From assembly GCF_010731775.1 (NCBI RefSeq), contig NZ_AP022590.1, forward strand, positions 2,914,001 through 2,978,000: 64,000 bases of DNA, read 5' to 3'. The stretch is from Mycobacterium mantenii. Its GTDB lineage: Bacteria; Actinomycetota; Actinomycetes; Mycobacteriales; Mycobacteriaceae. Below the pieces are notes generated by a model. The model was not told the origin of the DNA, did not search any database, and worked only from the letters and a program-made list of their open reading frames with translations. This document shows, in pieces, positions 29,109 through 58,708 of the stretch (positions are counted from its first letter, which is position 1; each line of letters opens with the position of its first letter). Both the position numbers and the translations under genes were made by a program.

Positions 29109-29821
29109 GCTCCTCGTCAGGACCGCAGTATCGGCATCAGCCGCTCGACGAGCTTCCGCATCCCCCGCGCAGCATCCTCGCCGGTGAACTCTTGGTGGCT
29201 ACCCCAAGCGCTCACGCGAAGCGTCCATCTATTTCGCCGTACAGAAGCTGTTCGATCTTAATTGAATTGAGAACTCCGAGCATCGTCGCCAATCCATTCC
29301 GCAACCGCCACCACGCTTGGACCCCAGGAGGGCCAGCACACTCGCTGTGCGAAGTGCTTGACGCAGTGGGTATCCCAATGCACGACGTCGATCTTGTGAT
29401 CACTCAGCAGATTTCTGCCCGGGCGATCCGCGAAGGTACGGACAGGATTTACGAGGCTTTCTGAGACGGTCTCGGGCACGAGGCTGTCAAACACCGCCGA
29501 CCGGGCGCTCGCATACCTCGACCCCCAACTAAACACCTGCGACTTCGGTCCCTAGCACGGGGCTGATTCGATGGCCGCGACGGTCGCCTCCCTTCGATCG
29601 TGACAGTGGGCAGCGACGGCTCGGTTATGCGCAGTCGGTGCAGATCCGCTGACTGCCCTCCGAGCTCGCCAGACGGCTCATGTGGTGGATGAGAAAGCAG
29701 CTCGAGCATGAATTCGTCTGCTCGCTTCGGAGCGATCGGCACTAAGACGTCTTCGCCCGCGTAATCGCTGCGGCCCAAGAATCGTTGCAGCCGCACTAAA
29801 TTGCGCTGGGCGACGCCAACC
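29109..29821. other. relic-rich region between the nrdZ operon and IS copy 1
   Basis: No intact gene. On the plus strand about 29300-29464 the reading frame ends with LCEVLDAVGIPMHDVDLV and QISARAIREGTDRIYEAF, which resembles the C-terminus of a ketoacyl-ACP synthase III. On the minus strand 29449-29821 contains a protein-like stretch (VLVPIAPKRADEFMLELL) that I cannot assign. Both look like fragments cut by IS insertion and deletion. Confidence 0.4.
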
Positions 29822-29837
29822 TGAAGCATCCCGGGTT

Positions 29838-30820
29838 TCATGCACCCTCGGGGTTCTGTGAGCCGGCCGGTTGGTCGGTCACGTGTTGGGAATAGTACCG
29901 GGCTTCGGCTTCGGCGGGTGGGACTCGGCCGAGGCGGTGCATGAGGCGCTGCTGGTTGTACCAGGCGACGTAGTCGGCGGTGATGTACTCGACGTCACCG
30001 ACCGTGGTGAGCGGCCCGCGACGGAACGGGGAATCAGGCCGGATGCACTCAGTCTTGTAGAGTCCGATCGTGGTCTCGGCCAGAGCATTGTCATAGGCAT
30101 CGCCGACACTGCCGACCGAGGGTCGGATGCCCGAAAGGGCAAGTGTTTCACCGAATCTCACGCTGGTGTACTGCGATCCTGCGTCGCTGTGGTGGATGGC
30201 GTCCTCGATCGGGTGACCCTGACGCGACCGCAATGCGACGGCCTGACGGATCGCCGATTCGACGAACTGGGTCTGCTTGGAGGCGCAGGCCTCCCATCCC
30301 ACGATCGCCCCGGCGTAGGCGTCGATGACGAATGCGACGTAGACGAACACCCCCGTGACGAGCTTGACGTAGGTGAAGTCCGCAACGAGCAGCTGGTTGG
30401 GTGCGCCCACCCCGAACTGGCGATCCACCAGATCCGGTGGCCTCACCGCCGCCGGGTCGGCGATCGTGGTGCGCACGGCCTTCTGGCGGCGTACGCCCTG
30501 CCACCCGTTTCGGCGCATCAGGCGTTCCACCGTGGACTTCGCCACCGGGATGCCTTTGCGCTGCAGATGTGCCCACATCTTCACCGACCCGTACAGCGAC
30601 TCAGCTTGCGCCGGCCGTGCTCATCGGGTTCGTAGTAGCCGGCCAAGACCTCGCTGATGGTGGCGTCCCACAGGGCTCGCTTCGACGGTGCCCGCTTGAC
30701 CCAGGCGTAGAAGGTGCGTGGGGCGATCGGCACACCGTGCTCGGTGAGCACGCGGCAGATCGGAGCGACCCCGAAGCGGTGCCTGTGTTTGGCGATGAAC
30801 TCGCAGACCGAACTGGTCAG
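29838..30820 (-). pseudogene. IS copy 1 transposase orfB, frameshifted
   Basis: Same DDE integrase (HTH_21 plus rve) as copy 2, but near 30607 the sequence GCAAGCTGAG replaces GCAAGCCCGAG of copy 2: one base is lost and one changed. This breaks the frame after KRAL-type N-terminal sequence; only 248 codons downstream stay open from ATG 30584. Not expected to make a functional transposase. Confidence 0.88.
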
Positions 30821-31131
30821 CGGCGGTTGCGCGGGTCGCTCTCCCGCACGAAGAAAGACGTTGCCGCCTTGAGGATTTCGATCGTCTGCTCGAGCTCGGC
30901 GTTGCGCCGCTTGAGGGCGCGGATCTCAGCGGCCGCCGCCGAGGAGACACCGTCACGATCACCGTCGTCGACCTGCTGCTGACGGATCCAACTACGCAGC
31001 GTCTCGGCCGTCATCCCCAACCGCTTGGACACCGCCGTGATCGCCGCCCACTCACTTGGGTAGTCAGCACGGTGCTCCAACACCAGACGGACCGCCTTGG
31101 CCCGCGTCTGCGGGTCGTACTTGCTCGGCAT
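30817..31131 (-). CDS. IS copy 1 transposase orfA (helix-turn-helix)
   Basis: 104 residues from ATG 31131 with GGGAAGG 9 bp upstream. HTH_Tnp_1 domain (SKYDPQTRAKAVRLVLEH, AISKRLG-type helix) and a C-terminal leucine-rich coiled coil (LKRRNAELEQTIEILKAA). Identical in sequence to orfA of copy 2. In IS3 elements it is normally joined to orfB by a -1 frameshift. Confidence 0.9.
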   Translation of the reverse strand: MPSKYDPQTRAKAVRLVLEHRADYPSEWAAITAVSKRLGMTAETLRSWIRQQQVDDGDRDGVSSAAAAEIRALKRRNAELEQTIEILKAATSFFVRESDPRNRR

Positions 31132-31182
31132 GACATGCACCTTCCCAAGGAAGGAGGTGCGCATCAAACGCGGGATGGTTCA

Positions 31183-31946: not shown

Positions 31947-33068
31947 ATGATCGCCCAGTCTGGCCGTGGCCGAACGATTTTCCTGTGCGGTGACGTCATG
32001 ACAGGACGTGGCGTCGACCAGATACTGCCCCACCCGGGAGATCCGACATTGCGGGAGCCCATGGCTGACGACGCCCGCAGCTATGTGAGGTACGCCGAGG
32101 AGACCAGCGGCCCGATTCCCCGGCCGGTCGATTTCGCATGGCCATGGGGGGAAGCGCTGGCCCTCGTCGACCACTTCGCGCCCGACTTGAGGTTGATCAA
32201 CCTCGAGACCACCATCACCGCCGACGGCGAACTCGCGCACGGCAAGTCTGTGCACTACCGCATGCACCCCGACAACATGACGTGCCTGACCGCGATGCGA
32301 CCAGACGTTTGCGTACTGGCCAACAACCACATCCTCGACTTCGGGCAGCGCGGTCTTATCGATACATTGGAGGCGCTGAACCGGGCCGAAATCGCGCATG
32401 TGGGTGCTGGGCTCGACTCCGACCACGCCGAACGCCCCGCGATAGTGACCCTGTCCGACGGACATCACGTCGTGATTGCCTCGGGCGCAACGGAATCTAG
32501 TGGCATTCCCCGCGGTTGGGCCGCGACCGCGGCCCGGGCGGGCGTCGCCTTCATTCCGAACCTGTTGAATCGCACCGCCACCGAGATGACCGACCGGGTA
32601 CTTGCGCTAAAACAGCCCGGCGACATCACAATCGTATCCCTGCACTGGGGGTCCAACTGGGATTACGACGTTGCGCGCAGCCAAGTTCGCTTCGCGCGCC
32701 GACTGATCGACGCCGGGGTCGACGTCGTGCACGGGCACTCGTCACACCACCCACGACCGATCGAGGTTTACCGCGGCAAGCTCATCCTGTACGGCTGCGG
32801 GGACGCCATCAACGACTACGAAGGCATCAAGGGCTTCGAGGCCTACCGCAATGAACTGCGGCTTTTGTACTTTGCCTCGATCGAGCCCGACACCGGCAAC
32901 CTCACCACTTTGCACATGACGCCGATGCGGGCCCGCAGAATGCGGCTCGACCACGCCTCACACCAGGACAGCGAATGGTTGCGCTCTACCCTCGAGCGCA
33001 TCAGCCGGCGCTTCGGAACGTACGTCACCCTCGACCACGATGCCAACCTCATCGTCCACGGGTCGTAA
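31947..33068 (+). CDS. CapA-family metallophosphatase-like protein (Rv0574c-like)
   Basis: 373 residues from ATG 31947. CapA/PgsA fold with FLCGDVMTGRGVDQ at the N-terminus, INLETTITADGE, VCVLANNHILDFG, VSLHWGSNWDYD and VVHGHSSHHPRP, all metal-site type motifs of the PGA_cap family. No signal peptide. Homologues take part in poly-gamma-glutamate capsule synthesis; in M. tuberculosis Rv0574c is a DosR-regulon member of unproven function. Bracketed by two inverted IS copies. Confidence 0.9.
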   Translation: MIAQSGRGRTIFLCGDVMTGRGVDQILPHPGDPTLREPMADDARSYVRYAEETSGPIPRPVDFAWPWGEALALVDHFAPDLRLINLETTITADGELAHGKSVHYRMHPDNMTCLTAMRPDVCVLANNHILDFGQRGLIDTLEALNRAEIAHVGAGLDSDHAERPAIVTLSDGHHVVIASGATESSGIPRGWAATAARAGVAFIPNLLNRTATEMTDRVLALKQPGDITIVSLHWGSNWDYDVARSQVRFARRLIDAGVDVVHGHSSHHPRPIEVYRGKLILYGCGDAINDYEGIKGFEAYRNELRLLYFASIEPDTGNLTTLHMTPMRARRMRLDHASHQDSEWLRSTLERISRRFGTYVTLDHDANLIVHGS

Positions 33069-33356
33069 TCTGTGGTGGTCGTTCCCTTGCCGAAGTCCCA
33101 GTCCTGCAGGACCTTCCGTCGCCGCACTGCACTCTTTAACGTCCACACAAATAGATGACATGAACGGCCCCAACGACAGCTCAGATGTACAGATTCTCTA
33201 GGGAGACAGGCGGTCCCGGAACCTTGCTGAGCGCCGAGACCACCGGCGCAGCTTTACGGCCACACAGTGTACTTCACCACCGGTCTTCCTTCACCCACCA
33301 AACATTGAACCATCCCGCGTTTGATGCGCACCTCCTTCCTTGGGAAGGTGCATGTC

Positions 33357-33671
33357 ATGCCGAGCAAGTACGACCCGCAGACGCGGGCCAAGGCGGTCCG
33401 TCTGGTGTTGGAGCACCGTGCTGACTACCCAAGTGAGTGGGCGGCGATCACGGCGGTGTCCAAGCGGTTGGGGATGACGGCCGAGACGCTGCGTAGTTGG
33501 ATCCGTCAGCAGCAGGTCGACGACGGTGATCGTGACGGTGTCTCCTCGGCGGCGGCCGCTGAGATCCGCGCCCTCAAGCGGCGCAACGCCGAGCTCGAGC
33601 AGACGATCGAAATCCTCAAGGCGGCAACGTCTTTCTTCGTGCGGGAGAGCGACCCGCGCAACCGCCGCTGA
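33357..33671 (+). CDS. IS copy 2 transposase orfA
   Basis: 104 residues from ATG 33357 with GGGAAGG upstream (an earlier ATG at 33321 lies close to the IR). HTH DNA-binding domain plus leucine zipper. Overlaps the orfB frame by 4 bp; the last codons CGC CGC TGA are followed in the -1 frame by orfB. Confidence 0.92.
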   Translation: MPSKYDPQTRAKAVRLVLEHRADYPSEWAAITAVSKRLGMTAETLRSWIRQQQVDDGDRDGVSSAAAAEIRALKRRNAELEQTIEILKAATSFFVRESDPRNRR

Positions 33672-34651
33672 CCAGTTCGGTCTGCGAGTTCATCGCCAAA
33701 CACAGGCACCGCTTCGGGGTCGCTCCGATCTGCCGCGTGCTCACCGAGCACGGTGTGCCGATCGCCCCACGCACCTTCTACGCCTGGGTCAAGCGGGCAC
33801 CGTCGAAGCGAGCCCTGTGGGACGCCACCATCAGCGAGGTCTTGGCCGGCTACTACGAACCCGATGAGCACGGCCGGCGCAAGCCCGAGTCGCTGTACGG
33901 GTCGGTGAAGATGTGGGCACATCTGCAGCGCAAAGGCATCCCGGTGGCGAAGTCCACGGTGGAACGCCTGATGCGCCGAAACGGGTGGCAGGGCGTACGC
34001 CGCCAGAAGGCCGTGCGCACCACGATCGCCGACCCGGCGGCGGTGAGGCCACCGGATCTGGTGGATCGCCAGTTCGGGGTGGGCGCACCCAACCAGCTGC
34101 TCGTTGCGGACTTCACCTACGTCAAGCTCGTCACGGGGGTGTTCGTCTACGTCGCATTCGTCATCGACGCCTACGCCGGGGCGATCGTGGGATGGGAGGC
34201 CTGCGCCTCCAAGCAGACCCAGTTCGTCGAATCGGCGATCCGTCAGGCCGTCGCATTGCGGTCGCGTCAGGGTCACCCGATCGAGGACGCCATCCACCAC
34301 AGCGACGCAGGATCGCAGTACACCAGCGTGAGATTCGGTGAAACACTTGCCCTTTCGGGCATCCGACCCTCGGTCGGCAGTGTCGGCGATGCCTATGACA
34401 ATGCTCTGGCCGAGACCACGATCGGACTCTACAAGACTGAGTGCATCCGGCCTGATTCCCCGTTCCGTCGCGGGCCGCTCACCACGGTCGGTGACGTCGA
34501 GTACATCACCGCCGACTACGTCGCCTGGTACAACCAGCAGCGCCTCATGCACCGCCTCGGCCGAGTCCCACCCGCCGAAGCCGAAGCCCAGTACTATTCC
34601 CAACACGTGACCGACCAACCGGCCGGCTCACAGAACCCCGAGGGTGCATGA
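33668..34651 (+). CDS. IS copy 2 transposase orfB (DDE integrase)
   Basis: About 327 residues when read from the -1 frameshift; an independent GTG at 33737 would give 304. HTH_21 region (KMWAHLQRKGIPVAKSTVER) then rve catalytic core with the DDE triad: Asp in VADFTYVKL, Asp in HHSDAGSQYTS and Glu in NALAETTIGLYKTE. Closely related in layout to the IS6110 transposase. Confidence 0.92.
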   Translation: MTSSVCEFIAKHRHRFGVAPICRVLTEHGVPIAPRTFYAWVKRAPSKRALWDATISEVLAGYYEPDEHGRRKPESLYGSVKMWAHLQRKGIPVAKSTVERLMRRNGWQGVRRQKAVRTTIADPAAVRPPDLVDRQFGVGAPNQLLVADFTYVKLVTGVFVYVAFVIDAYAGAIVGWEACASKQTQFVESAIRQAVALRSRQGHPIEDAIHHSDAGSQYTSVRFGETLALSGIRPSVGSVGDAYDNALAETTIGLYKTECIRPDSPFRRGPLTTVGDVEYITADYVAWYNQQRLMHRLGRVPPAEAEAQYYSQHVTDQPAGSQNPEGA

Positions 34652-34969
34652 AACCCGGGATGCTTCACATCCCGCCGTCGTGGGCAATTGAGCGTGCGAT
34701 TCCAACACGACGCTATCCCGCAGACCGAGCCTAAGTCCCCATGATCGGTTTCGCGCCCGCCGCGCGCTTTCTGTGTGGTCATTTTGGCTTTTCCTCAGCG
34801 GCCGGACGTTGCGGTTCACGTTCTTTTGCCTCCCTGCGCAGACGCAAGTACATCTCTGCACCGAGCAGACGTTTAATGACTTCAAGGTAACGGTTATTAG
34901 CCATGTCAGCTCCTCATTTCTGGCTAGCCGCGGCCCTGGCTTCCTGGTATCTGGGTCGAGGTTGCGTCG

Positions 34970-36678: not shown

Positions 36679-37131
36679 TTAGCTGGCGGCTTGTACCGCG
36701 ACGTGCTTCTCCGCGGCTGCCATGGCTGCCTGTTCGGGCACGGTCACGTCGACGGTCAGGATGCCCTTGTCGTAGCTGGCTTTGATGTCGTCTTCGTTGG
36801 CGCCAGCCGGCAAAGTGACCGCGCGGGTGAATGAGCCGTAGGAGAACTCTGAGCGGCCCTTGGATTCTTTTCTCTCGCTGCGTTCGGCCTTGATCGTCAA
36901 CTGGCCGTCGCACACGGTGATGTCGACGTCCTTGACTGGATCGATGCCGGGTAGTTCGGCACGCAATAGGTAGTGCCCATCTTGCATTTCGTCCTCGAGT
37001 CGGATCAGGTGGGCGTCGATCATCGGACGCAGCCCTGTCCGCGATGGGAAACCGGTCCATACATCCGACCAGAAATCGGACCAGTCCGGCAGCCACGAGC
37101 GAGGTTGACGACGTGCAGGGAGATCAGCCAT
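36679..37131 (-). CDS. alpha-crystallin small heat-shock protein (HspX/Acr-like), copy 1
   Basis: 150 residues from ATG 37131 with GAAGGAG 6 bp upstream. Variable N-terminus rich in Arg/Trp, then alpha-crystallin domain: HLIRLEDEMQDGHYLLRAEL, LPGIDPVKDVDITV, and the DKGILTVDVTVPE motif. Very close to M. tuberculosis Acr (Rv2031c), an ATP-independent holdase dominant in dormancy. Follows a glycogen debranching gene; strong DosR box 73-86 bp upstream. Paralogue at 40835-41311. Confidence 0.95.
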   Translation of the reverse strand: MADLPARRQPRSWLPDWSDFWSDVWTGFPSRTGLRPMIDAHLIRLEDEMQDGHYLLRAELPGIDPVKDVDITVCDGQLTIKAERSERKESKGRSEFSYGSFTRAVTLPAGANEDDIKASYDKGILTVDVTVPEQAAMAAAEKHVAVQAAS

Positions 37132-37203
37132 GATGCTCCTTCGTGGTTGGTTGTTGTAGGACTTACCATTTCGATCTTTCAACTTATGCGTTGCCATACG
37201 GTA

Positions 37204-37217
37204 GGGGCCGAAGTCCC
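37204..37217 (-). promoter_or_regulatory. DosR box of hsp20-1
   Basis: Minus strand GATGGGACTTCGGCCCCTAC: the best DosR match in the window. Just upstream a second element GACAAACGACCCCC (37223-37236 region) is conserved at the same place before hsp20-2, suggesting paired DosR sites as in M. tuberculosis hspX. Confidence 0.8.
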
Positions 37218-37257
37218 ATCCGCGGGGGTCGTTTGTCGGCGTAACGCGTCGAGCGTA

Positions 37258-39396
37258 TTAGTCCGTGCAGTCATCGGCTGGTTTTGACGTGACCAGTTGC
37301 CAGTCGTGGGGCACTCCTTGGGCAGTCACCGTTTGGCCCTCGGCTTGCAGTTGGACGGTGGCCGGGCCAAGCCGCAAATCGGTGAGGGTCAGTCGGCCCC
37401 ATCGACGCGGCAGGTGCGGAACCACGGTCAAGGTGCGCTGAGGTACGTGGGGAGCCAGGCCGAGAAGCGATCGCACCAGCAGCAGCGGTGCGGCACTGGC
37501 CCATGCTTGCGGTGCGCACGCGGTCGGGTAGGGCACCGGCCGGTAGAACCGTGATCGGGCGAATCCACAGAACAATTCGGGTAGGCGCCCGTCGAACGCG
37601 TCGGCCGCGTCGAGCAGACCGTCGGCAAGGCGCTCGGCCAGTGTGATCGCTCCGGGAAGGTGCCGGTAGCGCAGCAGGCCGGCCACCGCGATGGCGGTGT
37701 CGTGCGGCCACACCGAACCGTTGTGGTAGCTCATCGGGCTATAGGCGCCCATCGTCGAGGCCAGGGTGCGTAACCCGAACCCACAGTCCATTTCCTCGCT
37801 CGCGAGCCGCTCTATCATTTCGGCGGCGTGCTCATCGGTGGCGATTCCGGTCCACAGGCAGTGCGCGATGTTGCTGGTGAGTGCGTCGACGTGACGTTTG
37901 CTGCCGTCCAGAGCAATTGCATACCAGCCCTTTTCGGGGAGCCAGAATGCTTCGAGGAATTTCCCGCGCAGGGTGTCGGCGTGGTCACGCAGCTCGGCGG
38001 CTTGGGCCGGGTCGCCGAACGCCTCGGCCAGCTCGGCGCGCGCCAGCAGCGCCGCATATTGATAGCCCTGCACTTCACACAGCGCGATCGGCGGCTCGGC
38101 GGTGCGGCCCTCGGTGTCGTTAATCGCGTCGAAGCTGTCCTTCCAGCCCTGATTGATCAGCCCGCGGTCGGTCGCACGTCGGTATTCGATGAAGCAGTCG
38201 CCGTCGCGGTCACCGTATTTCTGGGCCCAGGCCAGGGCGGCGTCGGCGGCCGGAAGCAGCGAGCGCACCGCGGTTTCGTCGGCCCCCCACCGCCAGCACT
38301 CTCCCAAGAGCATGACAAACAGTGGGGTCGCGTCAACCGAGCCGTAATAGGCGACACCGTCGAGCGCGCCGCCGCTGCCGGGCCCGCGGCGCAGCTCGTG
38401 CAGGATCCGGCCCGGTTGCTCCTCGGTCATGGGATCGAGGCGCCGGCCCTGCAGCCCGGCGAGCCGCTGCAGCGTGCCCAGTGCAACGCCGACATCTAGT
38501 GGTAAGACCATCCATGCGGTCAGCAGGCTGTCGCGGCCGAACAGTGTCATGAACCACGGCACCCCCGCCGCGACGAACGGCTTGGTGTCTTTTTTTTCGT
38601 CGCAGATCAGCAACGCCCCCAGGTCGCTTTCTGTGCGGCGCAATACCTGGGTGAGCAGCTCGTCCTCGGCGGTTAGGTCGGTCGTGCGGTCACGCCATGC
38701 TTTGACGGTGCGGTCGGGTTTCAGGGTTTTGAGGTGGTCGCGGCGGGTGGGCACCTGGCGGTGTGCCGGTGTTGGTTGCGCGACGATCTCGGCCTGCCAA
38801 CGTCGCCGGGCTGGCAGGACGATCTGCCAGGACAGCACGCCGGGTATCACGGTGGGATCCGCGGAGGCGACCACAGACAGTCCGCGTGCGGGATCGGTGA
38901 GGTCGGCCAGCACCAGTTCGGTGCCGAGCACCGTCGGTTCGGCGCCGTGCAGCGGTGCGCGGCCCTGCTTGACCGCGAAGAGATCGGCGAAATCGGCGTC
39001 GGCATGAATTTCTAGGCAGACCACGGTGCTTTCGTGGCCGAGGTTTTCCAGCGTGATCGTTTCGCGCAGGCCCCCGGCGATGAATCGTTCACGCACCAGC
39101 AACAGGTTGCTGTCACAAAATCCTGCGCGCGGGGCTTTGCGCAAGATGAATTGTGCGGTAAAGGGTTCGGGGGTCTGCACGGACAGCATGTCGGGCGTGT
39201 GTCCGTCAACGAGTAGCTCCCACCGCGACAGCACCCGCGTGTTACGAAGAAACAATCCCTGCGACGTTCCCGGGACGATGTCACCGTAGGCGTTGGACAG
39301 GCAGAACGTCGGGCCCTCGACCAGGGTGACCATAGCTGCAGCATCTTTGGTGCAAACCGGTTCATGGGTGTCGTGTGTGGGCGTGGGTGCGGTCAT
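37258..39396 (-). CDS. glycogen debranching enzyme (amylo-alpha-1,6-glucosidase family), copy 1
   Basis: 712 residues from ATG 39396 (GGAGG 7 bp upstream), overlapping the glycosyltransferase stop by 4 bp. N-terminal GDE_N_bis beta-domain (about 20-240; VTLVEGPTFCLSNAYGD, LFLRNTRVLSRWEL), then an (alpha/alpha)6 catalytic barrel (about 290-640) with PWFMTLFGRDSLLTAWM, DRGLINQGWKDSFD, ALCEVQGYQYAALL and SYHNGSVWPHDTAIA, the glucoamylase-like residues. Cytosolic; expected to cleave alpha-1,6 branch points of glycogen or related alpha-glucan. Paralogue at 41528-43654. Confidence 0.88.
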   Translation of the reverse strand: MTAPTPTHDTHEPVCTKDAAAMVTLVEGPTFCLSNAYGDIVPGTSQGLFLRNTRVLSRWELLVDGHTPDMLSVQTPEPFTAQFILRKAPRAGFCDSNLLLVRERFIAGGLRETITLENLGHESTVVCLEIHADADFADLFAVKQGRAPLHGAEPTVLGTELVLADLTDPARGLSVVASADPTVIPGVLSWQIVLPARRRWQAEIVAQPTPAHRQVPTRRDHLKTLKPDRTVKAWRDRTTDLTAEDELLTQVLRRTESDLGALLICDEKKDTKPFVAAGVPWFMTLFGRDSLLTAWMVLPLDVGVALGTLQRLAGLQGRRLDPMTEEQPGRILHELRRGPGSGGALDGVAYYGSVDATPLFVMLLGECWRWGADETAVRSLLPAADAALAWAQKYGDRDGDCFIEYRRATDRGLINQGWKDSFDAINDTEGRTAEPPIALCEVQGYQYAALLARAELAEAFGDPAQAAELRDHADTLRGKFLEAFWLPEKGWYAIALDGSKRHVDALTSNIAHCLWTGIATDEHAAEMIERLASEEMDCGFGLRTLASTMGAYSPMSYHNGSVWPHDTAIAVAGLLRYRHLPGAITLAERLADGLLDAADAFDGRLPELFCGFARSRFYRPVPYPTACAPQAWASAAPLLLVRSLLGLAPHVPQRTLTVVPHLPRRWGRLTLTDLRLGPATVQLQAEGQTVTAQGVPHDWQLVTSKPADDCTD

Positions 39397-40613
39397 GCGC
39401 TTACCTCCAGGATTTGGCAGGCAGGCCGAGGCCGGGCCGGCGTGGGGGCCAGCCCGTCCGCCTGCGGCATCGCGGCAAGCGCTCGCCGGTAGATGCGTTC
39501 GTAGCCCAACCCGAGCTGCTCGACGCCGAAGTTGGCCTCGACGTGGCGACGGCATGCTGCCGGGTCGATCGTTGCGGTGCGGCCGATCAGCTCGGCAAGA
39601 TCGCTTGGGTCGTCGCAGGTGAACCCCGTCACCCCGTCGACGACAACCTCCGGGACGGCACCCCGACGCAGCGCCACCACCGGCGTCCCGCAGGCCATCG
39701 CCTCGATCATCACCATTCCGAACGGTTCTTCCCACTGCACGGGAAATAGCAGACAGCGAGCCCGGGCGAGCAGACTGCGTTTGGCCAGCGCATCAGCTTG
39801 GCCGTATAGGGAGTCGCGGTCACCCAGCAGGGGCTGGACCGTCTCACGGAAGTAGGCCTTCTCGGCAGGTTCGATGCACTTGCCGGCGAGGACCAGCGGA
39901 ACACCGGCCTGGTGTGCGGCTCGCAGCGCCAGATCGGGCCCTTTATCGGGTGTGAACCGGCCTAAGAACAAAGCGTAATCCTCTTTCTCGGCCTGAAACG
40001 GCCAATCCTCGACTCGCAGCGCGTTGTGGACTCGGCCCACCCAGTTCAAGCCGGGGGCCAGTGTGCGTTGGCGGTCGCTGATCGCGACCAGGTCCACGTC
40101 AGCACCGATGTCGCGGTAGTAATCGTGCATGTCGGTGTGCACCGGGCCATGCGCGGTGACCACGGTCGCTATCCCGCGGTCTTGGTAGGCGACCGCGTTC
40201 AGGGGCCCGGCCAAGGTGTGGTCATGGACGACATCGACGCCGTCGGTAGCGGCGAGTTGCTCGACCGCGTGGCCGACCTTGAGCGCATGGACAACTTCGG
40301 GTAACGGCGTGCCGAGCAGCTCTGGCACCGCGCGGTCCCAGAGCGGCACAAAGCGAGCCGCGGTACCTGGCTGACCGGCACCCAACAGAGTCACGTCGTG
40401 CCCGCGTGCCACCAACTCGTCGGCCAGATCGGCCACCACCGCTTCAATACCCCCGTACGCGCGGGGCGGAACATCGAAGTAGGGCGGCGCGACCAGGGCG
40501 ATGCGCAGGCGCTGTCTCGGGTCAGCATCCAGTTCAGCTGATCCCGGGAACAGCCCGTGCCTGCGTCTGGCTGCTGAATCGCTTGCCGCATAACCGGTGT
40601 GATCGATCTTCAT
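39393..40613 (-). CDS. GT4-family glycosyltransferase
   Basis: 406 residues from ATG 40613 (GAGG 9 bp upstream; ATG 40622 lacks spacing). GT-B fold: N-terminal IALVAPPYFDVPPRAYGG with VVHDHTLAG, and nucleotide-sugar domain ALFLGRFTPDKGPDLA, LLFPVQWEEPFGMVMIEAMA (E-x7-E motif). Likely UDP- or ADP-glucose-type donor. Translationally coupled to the debranching enzyme, which points to alpha-glucan metabolism; product unknown. Confidence 0.88.
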   Translation of the reverse strand: MKIDHTGYAASDSAARRRHGLFPGSAELDADPRQRLRIALVAPPYFDVPPRAYGGIEAVVADLADELVARGHDVTLLGAGQPGTAARFVPLWDRAVPELLGTPLPEVVHALKVGHAVEQLAATDGVDVVHDHTLAGPLNAVAYQDRGIATVVTAHGPVHTDMHDYYRDIGADVDLVAISDRQRTLAPGLNWVGRVHNALRVEDWPFQAEKEDYALFLGRFTPDKGPDLALRAAHQAGVPLVLAGKCIEPAEKAYFRETVQPLLGDRDSLYGQADALAKRSLLARARCLLFPVQWEEPFGMVMIEAMACGTPVVALRRGAVPEVVVDGVTGFTCDDPSDLAELIGRTATIDPAACRRHVEANFGVEQLGLGYERIYRRALAAMPQADGLAPTPARPRPACQILEVSA

Positions 40614-40834
40614 TGCCAACATCCTCGGAGATGGTGATTAGTGTCTGCTGGAGCGCGACATCCGGAGGCCGATTGACCTCAACGCTGACGACATAAGTTC
40701 AACCTCTCCAGAAATCAGCCCGGGGCTGCACCGATGTTGCGGCCCAATGAAATTCGTCTGATGAAACCGCAGCTATTGTTTACCTGAGGAACGCCTTAAT
40801 GGAATACCTTGGGTGACAACAGGATTCTGCGCAT

Positions 40835-41311
40835 TTAACGGGAATGCCGCGAATGCCAGCGGCGGCGCTTCGACCCGGCTTGGATTACTGCCCGCACGGC
40901 GATGTGCTTCTCGGCCGGCGCAGCCCGTTCGGGGACGGCCACCGAAACGGTCAGGATGCCTTTGTCGTAGGTAGCTTTGATGTCGTCTTCGTTGGCGCCA
41001 GCCGGCAAGGTCGCGCAGCGCACAAACGAGCCGTAGCGAAACTCCGAGCGGCCGTCGGCTTGCGTCTTCTCGCTGCGTTCGGCCCTGATCGTCAACCGGC
41101 CGTCGCGCACGGTGATGTCGACGTCTTTGGCCGGATCGATGCCGGGGATTTCGGCGCGCACCACATAGTGGCCGTCAGTCACCTCGTCTTCGAGCCGCAT
41201 CAGCTGGGTGTCGACGAGCAACGGAAGATCGGCCCACGTGGAGAAATCGGGGAACGATTCGGTGGGTTCGAACAGCCGTCGCGGCTGACGCTGCGCAAGA
41301 AGGTCACTCAT
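40835..41311 (-). CDS. alpha-crystallin small heat-shock protein, copy 2
   Basis: 158 residues from ATG 41311 (AGGAGCATG; an adjacent ATG at 41314 is also possible). Alpha-crystallin domain with QLMRLEDEVTDGHYVVRAEI and DKGILTVSVAVPE, very similar to copy 1 but with an extra basic tail (SKRRRWHSRHSR). Follows debranching-enzyme copy 2; gap of 216 bp with conserved promoter elements. Confidence 0.93.
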   Translation of the reverse strand: MSDLLAQRQPRRLFEPTESFPDFSTWADLPLLVDTQLMRLEDEVTDGHYVVRAEIPGIDPAKDVDITVRDGRLTIRAERSEKTQADGRSEFRYGSFVRCATLPAGANEDDIKATYDKGILTVSVAVPERAAPAEKHIAVRAVIQAGSKRRRWHSRHSR

Positions 41312-41375
41312 CATGCTCCTAAAGGCTTAGGCGGTCGGCGTACCTGTTGATCCGACCACCCTCCGCGGGGCGTCG

Positions 41376-41393
41376 ATAGGGACCGATGTCACC
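41376..41393 (-). promoter_or_regulatory. DosR-like box of hsp20-2 (proximal)
   Basis: Minus strand GTGACATCGGTCCCTAT, 65-82 bp upstream of hsp20-2, the same distance as the hsp20-1 box. The neighbouring GGGGGTCGTTTGTC (plus strand, 41401-41413) is shared with the hsp20-1 upstream region. Confidence 0.6.
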
Positions 41394-41450
41394 CCCCAGG
41401 GGGTCGTTTGTCCACGTGGGGCAGCGGAACACCGGTGGGCAGCGGCTCTC

Positions 41451-41467
41451 TTGGGCTGAAGGTCCGT
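41451..41467 (-). promoter_or_regulatory. possible distal DosR-like box of hsp20-2
   Basis: Minus strand CGGACCTTCAGCCCAA, about 10 of 15 matches to the consensus, 140 bp upstream of hsp20-2. Confidence 0.35.
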
Positions 41468-41527
41468 GCCACGCGATCCGTGGTCTGTGCCCTGCATGCG
41501 CGGGGGCCCAAGCCCGACGGCGCAGGA

Positions 41528-43654
41528 TCATCGGGACGGTGTCACCAACCGCCAGTCGTCGGGTAGGCCGCGAGTCGTGACAGTCTCGCCCTCAGCTTCC
41601 AGGTGCACCGTGATGCCGCCGAGCCGCAGGTCGCTGAGCTTGACGCGACCCCACGCCTCGGGCAACTGTGGTGCCACCGCGAGTCGCCGCTGGGGCACGT
41701 GCGGCTCCAGGCCGAGGAACGATCGGACCAGCAGTAGCGGTGCCGCGCTGGCCCACGCTTGCGGCGAGCACGATGTTGGATACGGCACTGGAGCGTGGAA
41801 CTGCGAGCGGGGAAATCCACAATACAGCTCGGGCAGCCGCCCACCGAACGTCGCGGCCGCGTCCAGCACGCCGGTGGCCAGCCGCTCGGCCAGTGCCAGC
41901 GCGCCCGGCACCTGGCGATAGCGCAGGAGACCGGCAACCGCGATCGCGGTGTCATGCGGCCACACCGAGCCGTTGTGATAGCTCATCGGGTTGTAGGCGC
42001 CCATCGTCGCCGCGAGTGTGCGCAATCCGAAGCCGGAGTCCATCTCCTCGGTTGAGAGACGCTCGATGATCACGCGGGTGTGCTCATCGTCCGCGATACC
42101 CGTCCACAGGCAGTGTCCGACATTGCTCGTCAACGCGTCGACTGGGTGTTTGGCGGCGTCCAGCGCGACCGCGTACCAACCCTTTTCGGGGAGCCAGAAC
42201 GCGTCCAGGAACCTGGCTCGCAGCGCCGCAGCGCGCTCACGCAACCGCGCGGCCGTCGACGCGTCGCCGAACGCCTCGGCAAGCTCGGCGCGCGTCAGCA
42301 GCGCCGCATACAGGTAGCCCTGCACCTCGCAGAGCGCGATCGGCGGCTCAGCCACGCGACCGGCGGCGTCATTGACGCCGTCGAAGCTGTCCTTCCAGCC
42401 CTGGTTGATCAAGCCCCGATCGGTCGCGCGCCGGTACTCGACAAAGCCGTCGCCGTCGTGGTCGCCGTAGTTCTCGGCCCACGCCAGTGCCGCGTCGGCG
42501 GCCGGCAGCAGCGAGCGCACCGTCGCCTCGTCGACGCCCCACCGCCAGCACTCGCCCAGCAGCATCACAAACAGCGGTGTCGCGTCCACCGAGCCGTAAT
42601 AGACACTGCCGCCCAGTACTTCGGTGCTGGCCGGGCCGCGGCGGATCTCGTGCATGATCCGGCCAGGCTGCTCCTCGGTGATCGGCTCTACCTGGGTGCC
42701 CTGCGCAGCGGCCAGCTGCTCCAGGGTGCCGATGGACAGTCCGACATCTAAAGGCAGTGCCATCCAGGCGGTGAGCAGACTGTCACGGCCGAACAGGGTC
42801 ATGAACCACGGCGCCCCGGCGGCGACGAACGATCGGCCGCGACCGCTGTCGTCATGAATGAGTAACGCGCCCAGGTCGCCTTCGGTTTGCCGCAGCACCG
42901 CGTTGAGCACCTGATGACCGGTGTCGACGTTGGTTGCGGTGTCGCGCCACGCCTCGATCTTGCGGGCCGGGGCGCTGGCGCCTACGTGCTCGCCGCGGCG
43001 CAGTCGCGTTGTGATTTTCTGGTTGTCCCAGGTGGGTTGGGCGACGATCTCGGTCTGCCAGCGCTGCCCGGGTGCCACCACGACCCGCCAGCGCAGCGAC
43101 CCGGGCAACACGGTGGGATCAGCTGATGCCGTGACGGACAGGCCGTGCACCCGCTCGGTGCGTTCGGCCAGCATGAGCTCCCCGTCGATGACCGTCATCT
43201 CCGCGCCCCCTAGCGGCGCACGGCCCTCCTTGACCGAGAACAGGTCGGCGAAGTCGGCGTCGGCGTGCAGTTCGAGAGAGACAACAGTGGGTTCGCGGTC
43301 GAGATTGCACAGCGTGATGGTCTCGCGCAGGCCATCAGCCACCAGCCGCTCGCGCACCACCAGCAGCGTGCTATCGGCCGACCCCGCGCGCGGCGTGCGA
43401 CGCAGGATGAATTGCACCGCAAAGGCTTGCGAGAACTCCACTGACAGCGATTCGGCGGGCTGGCCATCGACGCGTAGCTCCCATCGCGATAGCACCCGCG
43501 CGTCCCGGAAGAACAATCCGTGTGAGCCGCCCGCTGCGATGTCGCCATGCCGGTCGGACAGGCAAAACGTCGCGCCTTCGACCAGCGTCACGGTGTCGCC
43601 GCCGGCCCCGATGCGGGACGGTTCGCCGCTGTTAAGCGCGGCCGGAATCGTCAT
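41528..43654 (-). CDS. glycogen debranching enzyme, copy 2
   Basis: 708 residues from ATG 43654. Same domain order and key motifs as copy 1 (VTLVEGATFCLSDRHGD; PWFMTLFGRDSLLTAWM; DRGLINQGWKDSFDG; SYHNGSVWPHDTAIAVAG), clearly a paralogue. Its start overlaps the stop of a decayed glycosyltransferase by 4 bp, exactly as copy 1 overlaps its intact glycosyltransferase, so the whole module was duplicated. Confidence 0.88.
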   Translation of the reverse strand: MTIPAALNSGEPSRIGAGGDTVTLVEGATFCLSDRHGDIAAGGSHGLFFRDARVLSRWELRVDGQPAESLSVEFSQAFAVQFILRRTPRAGSADSTLLVVRERLVADGLRETITLCNLDREPTVVSLELHADADFADLFSVKEGRAPLGGAEMTVIDGELMLAERTERVHGLSVTASADPTVLPGSLRWRVVVAPGQRWQTEIVAQPTWDNQKITTRLRRGEHVGASAPARKIEAWRDTATNVDTGHQVLNAVLRQTEGDLGALLIHDDSGRGRSFVAAGAPWFMTLFGRDSLLTAWMALPLDVGLSIGTLEQLAAAQGTQVEPITEEQPGRIMHEIRRGPASTEVLGGSVYYGSVDATPLFVMLLGECWRWGVDEATVRSLLPAADAALAWAENYGDHDGDGFVEYRRATDRGLINQGWKDSFDGVNDAAGRVAEPPIALCEVQGYLYAALLTRAELAEAFGDASTAARLRERAAALRARFLDAFWLPEKGWYAVALDAAKHPVDALTSNVGHCLWTGIADDEHTRVIIERLSTEEMDSGFGLRTLAATMGAYNPMSYHNGSVWPHDTAIAVAGLLRYRQVPGALALAERLATGVLDAAATFGGRLPELYCGFPRSQFHAPVPYPTSCSPQAWASAAPLLLVRSFLGLEPHVPQRRLAVAPQLPEAWGRVKLSDLRLGGITVHLEAEGETVTTRGLPDDWRLVTPSR

Positions 43655-43870
43655 GTCGTGGCTGGCCGATCGAGCTTACCGAAGTGATTGCGTTGCAGTT
43701 CAATGGATTTGACCACCCTCATGGCACTGTTGGGCCCGCCCGCCATCGGTACACGGCGTGCCATCGCTTCGACGATCACGAGCCGCCCTCCTCTTCCCAC
43801 ACCATCGGGAACAGCACACACTGTGCATCCGCTTCCAGTCTGCGCTCGTTGACCAGCGGCGCGCCCGAAC
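43651..43870 (-). pseudogene. glycosyltransferase relic upstream of debranching copy 2
   Basis: Two frames together read DAQCVLFPMVWEEEGG, then RLVIVEAMARRVPMAGG and a new C-terminus ending at TGA 43651. The aligned part of the intact enzyme is RCLLFPVQWEEPFG followed by MVMIEAMACGTPV. One frameshift and loss of the N-terminal 250 or so residues and the C-terminal helix. Confidence 0.75.
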
Positions 43871-44169
43871 GACATGATCAACGCTGAGGCTTTGGCCCTC
43901 AGCATCAGTGACTTCTGACTCCTTCGGGAAGAGACCTACGACGACGGCGCCCAGGCCATCTGGCACTCGTCCGCATTGTTTGCGATGGGCGATTCTGAGC
44001 GCTATGACAAGCGCAGGCGTTTACCGTCAGGATAACTGGCTGCCGCGCGGAGTCCACGGCGCGGCTGACGCCAACTTCGCGTGCGATCCGGGGTTTCGCC
44101 AGCTTGTTTCCGGCCCGCTAACTCGGCGGCGGCGCGCTAACAGTATGCCTGGACGGCACAGCCGGTTGT

Positions 44170-44801: not shown

Positions 44802-46232
44802 TCAGCCCTTCACTACGCCAAGGGGGATGAGGCGGGCGACCTTGCGGGCTAGCCCGGCGAGGTGGCTGGTTTGGATGACAGCGTCGATGTCCTTATAGGC
44901 CTCGGGTTTTTCCTCGGCGAGCCCCTTTCGGGATTTGCCGCGCACCAGGATGCCGGCATCCTCAAGGCTTCTGCTCAATGCCTCGGCGTTGGTGTGGCGG
45001 GCGGCTTGGTGGCGGCTTTGCACTCTGCCGGCGCCGTGTGCGGTGGAATAGAAGGCGGGGTTATCCGGCACACCGGCCAGCACGTAGGAGGCGGTGCCCA
45101 TGGTGCCGGGGATGAGCACCGGCTGGCCGACGGCGGCCAGGTCGGCCGGCACGTCGGGATGGTGCGGCGGTAGCGAGCGGGTTGCGCCCTTGCGGTGCAC
45201 GCACAGAGTACGTGTCTGGCCGTCGACGGGGTGCTCCTCGATCTTGGCGAGGTTGTGCGACACGTCGTAGAGCAGGTCCAGCGATGTCGTGGTTTCCTGC
45301 TCGAACACCCGGCGGGTTGCTTCGGTGAGCAGTTGACGGTTGGCGCGTCCGTAGTTGGCCGCCGCGGCCATCGCGGCCAGGTAGGCCTGGCCCTCGGGCG
45401 AGCGGGCGGGCACGCACGCCAACTGGCGATCTGGCACTTGAATACCGTAGCGGCCCATGGCGTTTCCCATCTGGTGGACGTGATCGGTACAGATCTGATG
45501 CCCGAGGCCGCGCGAGCCGGTGTGGATCATCACGCAGACGGTGCCTTCGGAGAGGCCCATCTGTGTGGCGGCGGCGGCGTCGTAGACGCGTTCCACGGCC
45601 TGCACTTCCAGGAAATGGTTGCCCGAGCCCAGGCTGCCGATCTGCCCGAGCCCGCGTTCGATCGCCCGCTCGCTGACCGCCGCCGCGTCGGCCCCCTGCA
45701 GCATGCCGCCGTCTTCGCAGCGCTGCAGGTCGCGCGCGACGCCGTGTCCCTGCTGCACCGCGAACCGGGCGCCGCCGGTCAACACGTCTTCCAGCGCACC
45801 GCGGTTGGGCAGCCGCCATACGCCTTTGGTGCCCACGCCGCGGGGTATCGCGACGTCGAGGCGGTCCATCACCGCGCGGATCTTTGGTTGCAGCCGCTGG
45901 CGGTCCAGGTCGCTGACCAAAAGCCGTACCCCGCAGGAGATGTCGAAGCCGACCCCGCCAGGCGAGACGACCCCACCGGCCTCGACGTCGGTTGCGGCCA
46001 CGCCGCCGATCGGAAATCCGTAGCCCCAGTGCACATCCGGCATCGCATACGACGCCCGCACGATCCCGGGCAGCGTCGCGACATTGGCCACCTGAGCCAG
46101 CGCCATATCCCCGTATTCGTCGGGCAACAGCGACCTGGACGCGAAGACGATCCCAGGCACGCGCATGGCGCCCTCTTGCTCGATCCGGAACCGGTATGGG
46201 GTCTCCTCGACGATCTTCATGCGTCCGCTCAC
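44802..46232 (-). CDS. rtcB: RNA-splicing ligase RtcB
   Basis: 476 residues from GTG 46232 directly after the archease stop (ATG 46220 is possible). RtcB motifs: [32 protein letters not shown] with metal Asp/Cys, [21 protein letters not shown], and the guanylylated His in [12 protein letters not shown]. Joins RNA 2',3'-cyclic phosphate to 5'-OH ends with GTP and Mn2+. Operon partner archease makes it multiple-turnover. Rv2631 homologue, in the DosR set of M. tuberculosis. Confidence 0.95.
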
Positions 46233-46655
46233 TCACACGTCAAGTGTCACCGCACACCGCCAGCCATGCCGGCCATGCGAGAAGCGAAGATCGTTGAGCG
46301 ACACCGCCTTCGGCACGGCACCCACCTGAGGCAGCGTCGTTGCATCGACCATCACAAAGGTGGCGTCGACGCCACCGTCTGCACCGTTCAGATCGACATC
46401 AACCGGCACAGTACCCTCGGTATCCAACAAATAGATGACCTCATCGAGCACCGCGACCAGGAGATCGTCGTCACGGTCGGCCGTCACCCGGGTCAGGCGG
46501 ATGCGGCGCGGCTGAGCCGACGTGGAATCCAGGAAACTTTCTACCGTGCCGAGCACCGCTTCCCTGATGCAGCCGTCACGAGTCGGCGCCCACGCCTCGA
46601 TCCGCAGATCCGCAGTGTGCGGCACACTCCGATGCCCTGATGTCTGCGCTGCCAT
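46233..46655 (-). CDS. archease (RtcB cofactor, Rv2630-like)
   Basis: 140 residues. Archease fold: N-terminal SVPHTADLRIEAWAP with the metal-binding Asp, DDDLLVAVLDEVIYLLDTEG, and KAVSLNDLRFSHGRHGW. Promotes RtcB guanylylation. Lies 16 bp after the phosphoribosyltransferase-hydrolase gene and directly before rtcB, so all three form one operon. Confidence 0.92.
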   Translation of the reverse strand: MAAQTSGHRSVPHTADLRIEAWAPTRDGCIREAVLGTVESFLDSTSAQPRRIRLTRVTADRDDDLLVAVLDEVIYLLDTEGTVPVDVDLNGADGGVDATFVMVDATTLPQVGAVPKAVSLNDLRFSHGRHGWRCAVTLDV

Positions 46656-50570: not shown

Positions 50571-51803
50571 TCAGCCCGTCTCGTACACCGCTTGGGCGCC
50601 GTCGGCGGCGCCGCGGCGCAGTATCGGCGCGAACCGGACCCAGATGACCAGGGAGCCAACAGACAATGCGCCGAGCAGCATGAACGCCGCGGGGAATCCG
50701 AACGCTTGGGCAATGACCCCACCCAGCACCGGGCTGAGCGCTCCCCCCAGGCCCTGGGCACTCATGATCAGGCCCTGACCGACGTTGATGTGGCCGGTGC
50801 CGTCAAGTAATCGGGCCACCAGCCCGGGCACCGCAACGGACAGGATGCCTCCCCCGATGCCGTCGAGCACCTCCACCGGGATCACCCCCCAGGTGGTGAT
50901 CACCCCCGCGGCTAGGAATCCCCGGATAGGCAGGGCGATCAATGCGATCAGGATCGCTAGCCAGTAGCCGCGGATTTGGGCGATGCGCGTGGCCACCAGC
51001 GCCGCGGGGATCATCACGGCCTGCGCGATCACCACGGTGGCCGCAACGGTGGTGAACGGGTTTGCATGGGTGGCGACCACGGCCAGCCCGTAGAGCGGCA
51101 GCATGGCCGCGTTGCCCAACCAAAACAGCACCATCGCGGCCGCGACTGCCAGCAGAGGCCGGGACTGCAGCAACACCCGCATCGCCTTGACCGGGGCTTG
51201 ACCCGGGCCGTGGGCGGCCCCGCGCGCGACCTGATGGTCGATGTGGCCAGCGGGGATTGCCACCACGACGACGATGGTGATCACCGCAAACGCCGCGGCC
51301 AGCCAGAACACCGCGGGGTATCCGAACTGCCAGCCCAGCAGGCCAGATAACGCGGCGCCGACCATATTGCCGGCGTGGTTGTAGGCCTGGTTGCGGCCGT
51401 TTTGGCGGGTAAACCCCGCCTGGCCCACCACACCCAGGCTGATGCCGATTACGGCCGGGGCAATCGTTGCCCCCGCAATGCACATGGCCGCCTGTGCGGC
51501 GGCGATGACCCAAAACTGCCGCGACGCCAATATCAGCGCAGAAGCCGCCACGCTGCACAGTCCGACGGCGATCACGCAGGAGCGCTTGCGCGTGGTGGCA
51601 TCGACCACCGCTCCCGCCAGTGGAACCGCGACCATGCCGACGATCGCACCGAGCGTGATGACGGTGCCGATGGCGCCAGTCCTCCAGCCACGACTGGCCA
51701 ACAACACACCCAAAAACGGGCCCATCCCGGCCGACATGTCAGCCATGAAGAAATTCACCGCATACAGCGTCGCCCGATCACGCTGCCGCACAATCGGCCT
51801 CAC
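50571..51803 (-). CDS. MFS transporter
   Basis: 410 residues from GTG 51803 (GGAGG 10 bp upstream; the longer frame to 51989 is not membrane-like). Twelve predicted helices with MFS motifs (DATTRKR loop, GRNQAYNHAGNMVGAALSG). Similar to efflux pumps of the DHA1 type in general form; substrate unknown. Convergent with the site-2 protease gene. Confidence 0.85.
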   Translation of the reverse strand: MRPIVRQRDRATLYAVNFFMADMSAGMGPFLGVLLASRGWRTGAIGTVITLGAIVGMVAVPLAGAVVDATTRKRSCVIAVGLCSVAASALILASRQFWVIAAAQAAMCIAGATIAPAVIGISLGVVGQAGFTRQNGRNQAYNHAGNMVGAALSGLLGWQFGYPAVFWLAAAFAVITIVVVVAIPAGHIDHQVARGAAHGPGQAPVKAMRVLLQSRPLLAVAAAMVLFWLGNAAMLPLYGLAVVATHANPFTTVAATVVIAQAVMIPAALVATRIAQIRGYWLAILIALIALPIRGFLAAGVITTWGVIPVEVLDGIGGGILSVAVPGLVARLLDGTGHINVGQGLIMSAQGLGGALSPVLGGVIAQAFGFPAAFMLLGALSVGSLVIWVRFAPILRRGAADGAQAVYETG

Positions 51804-52193
51804 TGCGCTCTGGCCTCCACCGGCTCGATTCTTCCCCGAACCAGGCGCGGCCTCACCGCGAACCCTCGAAGGTCGGGCGCAACGGCACGCTGGCCGGCTA
51901 CAAAGCGCAGGTTGCGTCCGGCCGGACAAGCAATTCGCGTTGGATACCGACACCGCGGTGCTGCTGACCCAAGCACGGCGCCGCGGCACTCACAGTCATG
52001 ACGCGAACCCATCGAGGCCGTCAGCGCGTAAATCCCGGACCGCCTACCGCCGCTGATTGATTATCCGCCGAATGCCTGGCGGCCAAGCCGTTCGACAACG
52101 CAGCCGGCGTGCGTTGGGCGATTTCCTCGGTCGTCGAGCGACGCCCGTGTTTGATCGGACCGGCGTTGCATCTCGCGGCCACGGTGTGGGCGG
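51804..52193. other. spacer between the MFS and flavin-binding protein genes
   Basis: 390 bp holding the MFS promoter. Long ORFs through it on the plus strand are antisense shadows. No motif or RNA recognised. Confidence 0.35.
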
Positions 52194-58234: not shown

Positions 58235-58486
58235 GAAGGGCTCCAACATAACCCCCGGCCGCGCGCCTGTTCCCCATAAGTTTCCCGCACACCAGCGCAC
58301 CACCGCCTTTGCGGTCGTCGAACCAGATACAGAATGGATGCCGCCGTGTGCGCTCACCAGCGGGCGAAAGACCTCGTTGTTGGGACTTCTGACACCGATG
58401 CGTGTGACTTCTGAACTCACGCATCTCCGCGTCGCGGCGGTAACCTCAAGGATCCCGATCGGCCGATGCGAGAGATTACTTTCATT

Positions 58487-58708
58487 ATGAAAATGTGGAT
58501 CCAAATTGAAGGCCACGATGAGGGCGACGAGTGTCCGGATGACGCCACCTATGAGGTGCTCACGGGCGGTGTGCTAAAGGTCAGCAGCGGCAACGATATT
58601 CACCTCTACAGTCCGGCGTACTGGCAAGAGGTCACGATCGATACCCGCTCCGCGGCTCAGCGCAACGAACAAGCCCAACAACTCGACGAAGATTTCAAAT
58701 GGCAATAA
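58487..58708 (+). CDS. small acidic conserved-looking protein
   Basis: 73 residues from ATG 58487 (an ATG at 58466 would add 7). Beta-rich: MWIQIEGHDEGDECPDDATY, GGVLKVSSGNDIHLYSP, WQEVTIDTR. No domain recognised. Weak ribosome site. Last gene of the inserted block, divergent from polX. Confidence 0.5.
   Translation: MKMWIQIEGHDEGDECPDDATYEVLTGGVLKVSSGNDIHLYSPAYWQEVTIDTRSAAQRNEQAQQLDEDFKWQ

Follow-up and report, generated by a model that had tools for sequence, protein, structure and literature searches.

A conserved glycosyltransferase–debranching enzyme gene pair beside hspX-type chaperone genes: two neighbouring sets of separate descent in Mycobacterium mantenii

Introduction

The transmissible locus of stress tolerance of Proteobacteria contains a small heat-shock gene. 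It is a transferable island (PMC8407380, PMC8290217), and the likely mobile island described below, probably transferable as well, differs from it in the bacteria concerned and in element type. For mycobacteria, the available part of Ghinet et al. 2011 (PMC3218068) describes actinomycete integrative and conjugative elements (AICEs) with a serine recombinase in tRNA-Leu. Other described systems close to the genes treated here are the mycobacterial DosR-regulon chaperone gene hspX (acr), the alpha-1,2-glucosyltransferase glucosylsucrose synthase (TeGSS, alr1000), and the amylo-alpha-1,6-glucosidase of the archaeon T. gammatolerans (structure 7vma) together with enzymes of glycoside hydrolase family 63 (GH63). 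Here we analyse a 64,000-nucleotide stretch of the Mycobacterium mantenii genome (NZ_AP022590.1, positions 2,914,001 to 2,978,000; hereafter the window), which holds two neighbouring gene sets built from a GT4 glycosyltransferase (GT), an enzyme of glycogen-debranching type (GDE) and a gene of the HSP20/alpha-crystallin family (hsp20).

Our reading, to which we give a probability of about 0.55, is that these are two separately descended neighbour sets, in which the GT–GDE pair is predicted to form a small alpha-glucoside and trim it, and the hspX-type chaperone genes would respond to DosR through promoters of their own. The gene families are known ones in an unusual arrangement, and the promoter is of the ordinary hspX type.

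Results

Both sets lie on the minus strand and are transcribed from high to low coordinates. Set 1 runs GT4, GDE, hsp20 with all three genes intact, as an earlier note on this DNA had stated for the first of two copies. GT1 (39393..40622) and GDE1 (37258..39396; GDE_N_bis plus an (alpha/alpha)6 glycoside hydrolase), both recognised by Pfam, overlap by 4 bp at an ATGA that joins the GT1 stop to the GDE1 start, and they are followed by hsp1 (36679..37131; PF00011, E 6e-21), an hspX (Acr)-like HSP20/alpha-crystallin gene with a possible alternative in-frame ATG upstream at 37197. Set 2 consists of GDE2 (41528..43654), which Pfam and the tree place in GDE1's family but in another lineage, followed by the hspX-like HSP20/alpha-crystallin gene hsp2 (40835..41314; PF00011, E 1e-21). 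GDE1 and GDE2 both carry GDE_N_bis with MGH1-like/GDE_C domains in Pfam, and neither GDE nor hsp20 scores above the cut-off of a named NCBIfam family.

GDE2 is preceded by a barely recognisable GT remnant (43651..43883, minus strand). A single 34-residue piece at about 43782-43883 matches with 44% identity (E 2e-4), and other pieces have E > 1, so that the GT relic proposed earlier for the second copy survives in one weak match. The start of GDE2 also reads ATGA, in agreement with the same proposal, but the 34-residue piece, judged by coordinates, is out of frame with this stop, whose frame is open only back to 43938. It is plausible that the stop is an inherited GT stop, since the 4-bp overlap is conserved elsewhere.

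The conserved unit is the GT–GDE pair. Among the best 80 of 519 GDE relatives in named genomes, 65 loci have a GT immediately upstream in the same orientation, and in 59 of these 65 its stop overlaps the GDE start by 4 bp; one of the 80 loci is cut by a contig end. Mycolicibacterium agri (locus L053), a fast-growing soil species, is among the carriers of the pair. Crude clustering of neighbours at the 80 loci revealed no other conserved partner of GDE, with the GT found in 50 and every other cluster in at most 23. GT matches on S. meliloti and Jiella plasmids have no GDE annotated alongside, in a gene table that is incomplete.

Judged by trees and pairwise identities, sets 1 and 2 are neighbours of separate descent and not products of a recent tandem duplication, because each GDE has its own orthologue elsewhere and the trees do not pair the sets. 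At the protein level, GDE1 and GDE2 are 68% identical and hsp1 and hsp2 60%, whereas GDE1 is 78% identical to an orthologue on contig 6 of Mycobacterium sp. SM1, and hsp1 is 77% identical both to the hsp20 of that contig and to an hsp20 at 5591439 in its own genome. The GDE and hsp20 trees were made with a quick method and carry support from the Shimodaira–Hasegawa-like approximate likelihood-ratio test only. In the GDE tree (47 rows, 56 before removal of identical rows, with Nocardia and Pseudonocardiaceae reduced to 14 loci), GDE1 and the SM1 contig-6 GDE form a clade (support 100) outside 26 other mycobacterial GDEs of that lineage, and GDE2 falls within a 13-row clade (95) with the other GDE of SM1 and those of M. 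kyorinense, M. intermedium and others. In the hsp20 tree (30 rows), hsp1 groups with the SM1 hsp20 and the own-genome hsp20 at 5591439 (95/82), with hsp2 outside. The earlier view of a duplicated head-to-tail module is not borne out by proteins that differ by 32% (GDE) and 40% (hsp20) and by sets that are not sisters in the trees. SM1 contig 6 holds GT, GDE and hsp20 in the order and strand of set 1 with ATGA at the junction, and the other SM1 locus, on contig 1, is a GT–GDE pair with no hsp20 found within 8 kb on either side.

The ratio of nonsynonymous to synonymous substitution rates (dN/dS) of GDE2 is about 0.14 against SM1 contig 1, 0.19 against M. kyorinense and 0.17 against M. intermedium (three orthologues; Nei-Gojobori method, dS 0.77-0.91), a purifying constraint, so that GDE2 is kept despite the loss of its GT. 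A broken GDE, in two fragments with a stop, occurs in another genome of the genus (L105/L112, G064:C1:5124617-5125208).

The pair most likely makes and trims a small glucoside rather than glycogen. The nearest solved relative of GT1 is glucosylsucrose synthase (7fg9, E 2.5e-65, residues 38-383), of which GT1 keeps Tyr18, Arg179, Lys184 and Glu256 in the active site; it differs in having Tyr for Trp10, which stacks on fructose, in the overlap with a GDE gene, and in belonging to a genome with no detected sucrose-synthase/sucrose-phosphate synthase (SPS) domain. In addition, GT1 scores far below the glycogen-synthase cut-offs (69.9 vs 302.4 for glgA_Coryne and 34.3 vs 649 for GlgA), and two ordinary GlgX genes over the curated cut-off are found elsewhere in the genome. 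GDE has the archaeal debranching-enzyme fold, shared with 7vma (32% identity over 593 residues) and with GH63 enzymes, and unlike the archaeal enzyme it is actinobacterial and tied to a GT4 gene. Glycogen is an unlikely substrate of GDE1 and GDE2, and its earlier proposal as such is not supported, given the two GlgX genes and the affinity and scores of the GT.

As judged by its elements, a promoter of hspX/DosR type is located between GDE and hsp20 and faces hsp20. A proximal DosR-type box, GGGACTTCGGCCCCTA (37202..37217, minus strand), stands 86 nt before the hsp1 ATG at 37131, with 0 of 200 shuffles as good, and a distal element, GACAAACGACCCCC (37224..37237, minus strand), lies 20 nt upstream of the box. 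Before hsp2, the box is GTGACATCGGTCCCTA (41377..41392, minus strand), which is the GGGACTTCGGCCCCTA form with 2-3 mismatches, placed 78 nt before the ATG at 41314 (shuffle p 0.005), and GACAAACGACCCCC again lies 20 nt upstream of it (41399..41412, minus strand). The shared box and element that had been noticed before both hsp20 genes are confirmed, with 77% identity over 44 nt for the box and an exact GACAAACGACCCCC. In the available part of PMC12919924, an M. tuberculosis hspX probe used with DosR has both elements at the same 20-nt spacing as the hsp1 and hsp2 promoters; the 36-nt stretch of the probe given there finds the two hsp20 promoters as its best matches in the 64-kb window (27/36 and 25/36; next 23/36). 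The likeness to the DosR-regulon hspX/acr covers the HSP20 protein, the two elements, their spacing and the identity to a DosR-bound probe, and the genes here differ in being two paralogues behind GDE genes, with DosR control predicted. The hsp20 genes likely answer to DosR through their own promoter. A search of the window for the palindromic DosR consensus, with as many as 3 mismatches allowed, gave no match.

Upstream of several other genes the best box is no better than in shuffles, namely before GT1 (p 0.865) and GDE2 (0.35), before the GT (0.345) and hsp20 (0.955) of the AICE described below, before the SM1 contig-1 GT (0.955) and before three other window genes (p 0.345-0.915). Because these regions give no box above chance, the hypoxia-type promoter faces hsp20 and not the sugar enzymes. 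Of the earlier idea of glycogen mobilisation under a hypoxia promoter, the promoter type holds at hsp20, by sequence, but the connection to glycogen does not follow from a promoter that faces hsp20.

In a sample of 30 hspX-like genes (two from the window, three from elsewhere in the genome, one from SM1 and 24 from loci L147-L170), the box occurs within 200 nt upstream at up to 3 mismatches in 23 and is absent in seven, and the distal element, also at up to 3 mismatches, occurs 20-21 nt further up in nine. Promoter elements as a mark of the GT–GDE–hsp20 module are ruled out, being a wider property of hspX-like genes. Across the genome, GGGACTTNNGNCCC is found 12 times vs three for the reversed pattern, and four of the 12 matches concern window hsp1, another hsp20, a baeRF-family gene and an open reading frame without a Pfam match. 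Four box matches lie within 40 kb at C1:1.51-1.55 Mb of the same genome (L136-L139), preceding an hsp20 and a baeRF-family gene, with another close to a gene resembling, by eye, those of universal stress proteins; the cluster may mark another region of dormancy type. One more DosR-like box, with 2 mismatches, stands at 29539-29554 on the plus strand of the window, beside an insertion sequence (IS) copy and with no clear gene behind it.

A third GT–GDE pair is carried by an AICE of 25.9 kb in the same genome (C1:1802504-1828376; L127, L116 and L128), likely a mobile element, whose cargo comprises hsp20, GDE, GT and a major facilitator superfamily (MFS) gene. Its GDE (1815712-1817841) and GT (1817838-1819046) overlap by 4 bp, and its hsp20 (1815048-1815560) is convergent with the GDE. 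The element encodes a serine recombinase integrase (PF07508, E 2e-21), a RepSA-type replication protein (PF20199, E 9e-129) and an FtsK/SpoIIIE transfer protein (PF01580, E 2e-16), and also holds a NUDIX gene. The 3' end of a tRNA-Leu gene is repeated at its borders (29 bp exact on the left, 15 bp on the right), with 9.4 kb more between the element and the tRNA-Leu gene in this genome. Compared piece by piece with M. bohemicum and M. vulneris, the block shows 99.9-100% identity (18.1 kb at 99.97%/99.91%, 5.8 and 5.6 kb at 99.98%, 3.1 and 2.6 kb at 100%), compared with 79-93% in the flanks, and M. europaeum has 9 kb of it at 97%. This near-identity across species suggests that the element has excised and transferred. 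It shares the serine recombinase, RepSA, the FtsK-type transfer protein and the tRNA-Leu site with the AICEs of PMC3218068, and the available part of that paper does not mention a cargo of hsp20, GDE, GT and MFS; a search on AICEs, heat shock and RepSA gave nothing on an hsp20–GDE–GT cargo among the matches listed. Shorter pieces related to the MFS gene are found at L116 10623-10792 and 12269-12621.

Linkage of hsp20 to GDE is rare but recurrent, above chance. Our survey of the genus covered 148 genomes, 26 of them with any GDE match and 21 with a full or nearly full-length GDE, and these 21 were searched with PF00011. Of their 24 GDE loci, seven have an hsp20 no more than 2 kb away, against 0.108 expected, at distances of 224-543 bp. 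G097 and G038 correspond by position to M. bohemicum and M. europaeum and were not counted as further species. By our own grouping, the linked loci represent about four lineages (set 1 with SM1, set 2, the AICE copy and G142; Poisson P 5e-6); the lineages of sets 1 and 2 prompted the linkage test, and without them two events, AICE and G142, remain. The earlier note had put forward co-occurrence of the three genes in other genomes as a check; linkage of hsp20 to GDE is found in excess of chance, but at 17 of the 24 loci there is none within 2 kb, and these, together with the convergent hsp20 of the mobile copy, speak against a three-gene system.

Two explanations compete for this linkage. The stronger, which we place somewhat short of even odds, is plain co-residence, with hsp20 and GT–GDE both travelling as cargo of stress or mobile islands and their adjacency free of functional meaning. 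It fits the presence of a third pair with hsp20 on the AICE, the MFS gene family shared by the window (50571-51989) and the AICE (L116 4268-5683; 79% DNA identity), the IS copies near the locus in the window and the patchy hsp20 linkage, and it accounts poorly for a linkage above chance expectation and for such short distances in separate lineages. The second, which we consider unlikely, is a functional partnership in which the sugar and the small heat-shock protein would jointly protect proteins in dormancy, so that adjacency was selected. The same excess in four lineages would favour it, as would the differing hsp20 types (the AICE hsp20 is 35-38% identical to hsp1 and hsp2), but the two cases in the window prompted the search, the genes on the AICE are convergent, and most loci lack the linkage: among the 80 loci, with flanks of up to 8 kb, hsp20 is present only at L007, L010 and L011, which share the same convergent module, and at L071, about 2.3 kb before its GT.

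Other features of the window include an RtcB RNA ligase gene adjoining an archease gene on the same strand (44802-46655) and a PolX-type protein with DNA polymerase beta-thumb and PHP domains (56462-58516). Two inverted IS copies (29822-31182 and 33306-34667), 99.8% identical over 1362 bp and with an rve transposase in the second, bracket a CapA-like gene (31947-33068) in a composite-transposon layout.

Discussion

Several points weigh against our reading of two separately descended sets with a glucoside-forming enzyme pair and DosR-responsive chaperone genes. GT1 and the SM1 contig-6 GT are not sisters in a GT tree made with a quick method, and no GT could be detected next to GDE at 14 of the 80 loci. 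These 14 are mostly Nocardia (L039, L047, L049, L052, L056-L059, L067, L070, L073, L074, L078 and L081). On the regulatory side, the predicted DosR control is sequence-based, with a comparison probe from another species, and the box upstream of the SM1 contig-6 GT reaches p 0.065. On the enzymatic side, the substrate of the pair is something we infer. The closest solved relative of GDE, 7vma, is annotated as an amylo-alpha-1,6-glucosidase, so a branched alpha-glucan is a possible substrate; Foldseek ranks 2-13 for GDE are GH94-type phosphorylases and not GH63 enzymes; and confidence in the GDE structure model is middling, with a loop adjoining Asp422 that is modelled poorly. Sucrose, the acceptor of TeGSS, is doubtful as the acceptor here, and no sucrose-synthase/SPS domain was found in the genome by a search whose control was positive in Synechococcus. 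A search for the sucrose-phosphatase family gave three partial matches (best E 1.7e-7) over the family cut-off, and sucrose is for this reason still a possible acceptor.

A true glucosylsucrose system like that of cyanobacteria, in which the GT would make alpha-1,2 glucosylsucroses and GDE would hydrolyse them, would agree with the similarity and kept residues of the GT and with a GH63-type fold, one member of which (3w7w) was solved with an alpha-1,2-glucosyl sugar, but with no sucrose-synthase/SPS domain found in this genome it is improbable. Glycogen debranching for dormancy, with the chaperone sitting on glycogen granules, is less probable again: the GDE_N_bis/GDE_C domains and the archaeal amylo-alpha-1,6-glucosidase as nearest structure speak for it, but the genome has its two GlgX genes, the GT is not GlgA-like by cut-off, the promoter faces hsp20 only, and nothing in this analysis supports a link between Hsp20 and granules. 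A recent tandem duplication of one GT–GDE–hsp20 module with later GT decay in one copy is scarcely credible, since the order, strand and promoter elements alike in both sets are outweighed by trees and pairwise identities that speak against it, by promoter elements common to hspX-like genes at large and by a fully supported GDE1–SM1 clade that leaves out GDE2.

Under our reading, the (alpha/alpha)6-barrel GDE would take off again the glucosyl residues that the GT adds, and through this coupled unit the cell could adjust how much of a protective or reserve oligosaccharide it contains. Transcribed apart from the pair, hsp20 would likely be induced by low oxygen or nitric oxide (NO) via its two-site promoter of hspX type. 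The chaperone gene has come to lie beside the sugar enzymes more than once, in one case on a probable mobile element; a shared role in surviving dormancy would be the simplest reason. What is observed here is the gene content and its overlap, the match of the promoters, the conservation of the pair, the tree topologies and the nearly identical element in other species; the route of transfer, any benefit to the cell, the enzyme activities with their substrate and the control by DosR are inferred. A bolder version, which we offer tentatively and regard as rather unlikely, sees an actinobacterial dormancy-sugar unit, in which a translationally coupled alpha-glucosyltransferase and alpha-glucosidase would make and recall a protective glucoside, repeatedly paired with a chaperone in mycobacteria and spread by an AICE as a counterpart of the proteobacterial stress-tolerance island. 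In the literature searched, we found no characterisation of GT–GDE as such a unit and no paper joining DosR, amylo-alpha-1 and mycobacteria, and a search on structure 7vma gave nothing relevant among the matches listed.

The main interest lies in a widely conserved GT–GDE pair that an AICE appears to have spread recently, with a chaperone gene alongside. The two-site layout of hspX promoters may be used to list DosR-type chaperone genes across the genus. If the AICE is indeed mobile, its copy of the pair would be an example of very recent movement of genes for stress survival among species of mycobacteria, and if the product is a stress glucoside, the GT–GDE pair would represent an additional sugar pathway in mycobacterial and nocardial dormancy, hidden until now by the label "glycogen debranching".

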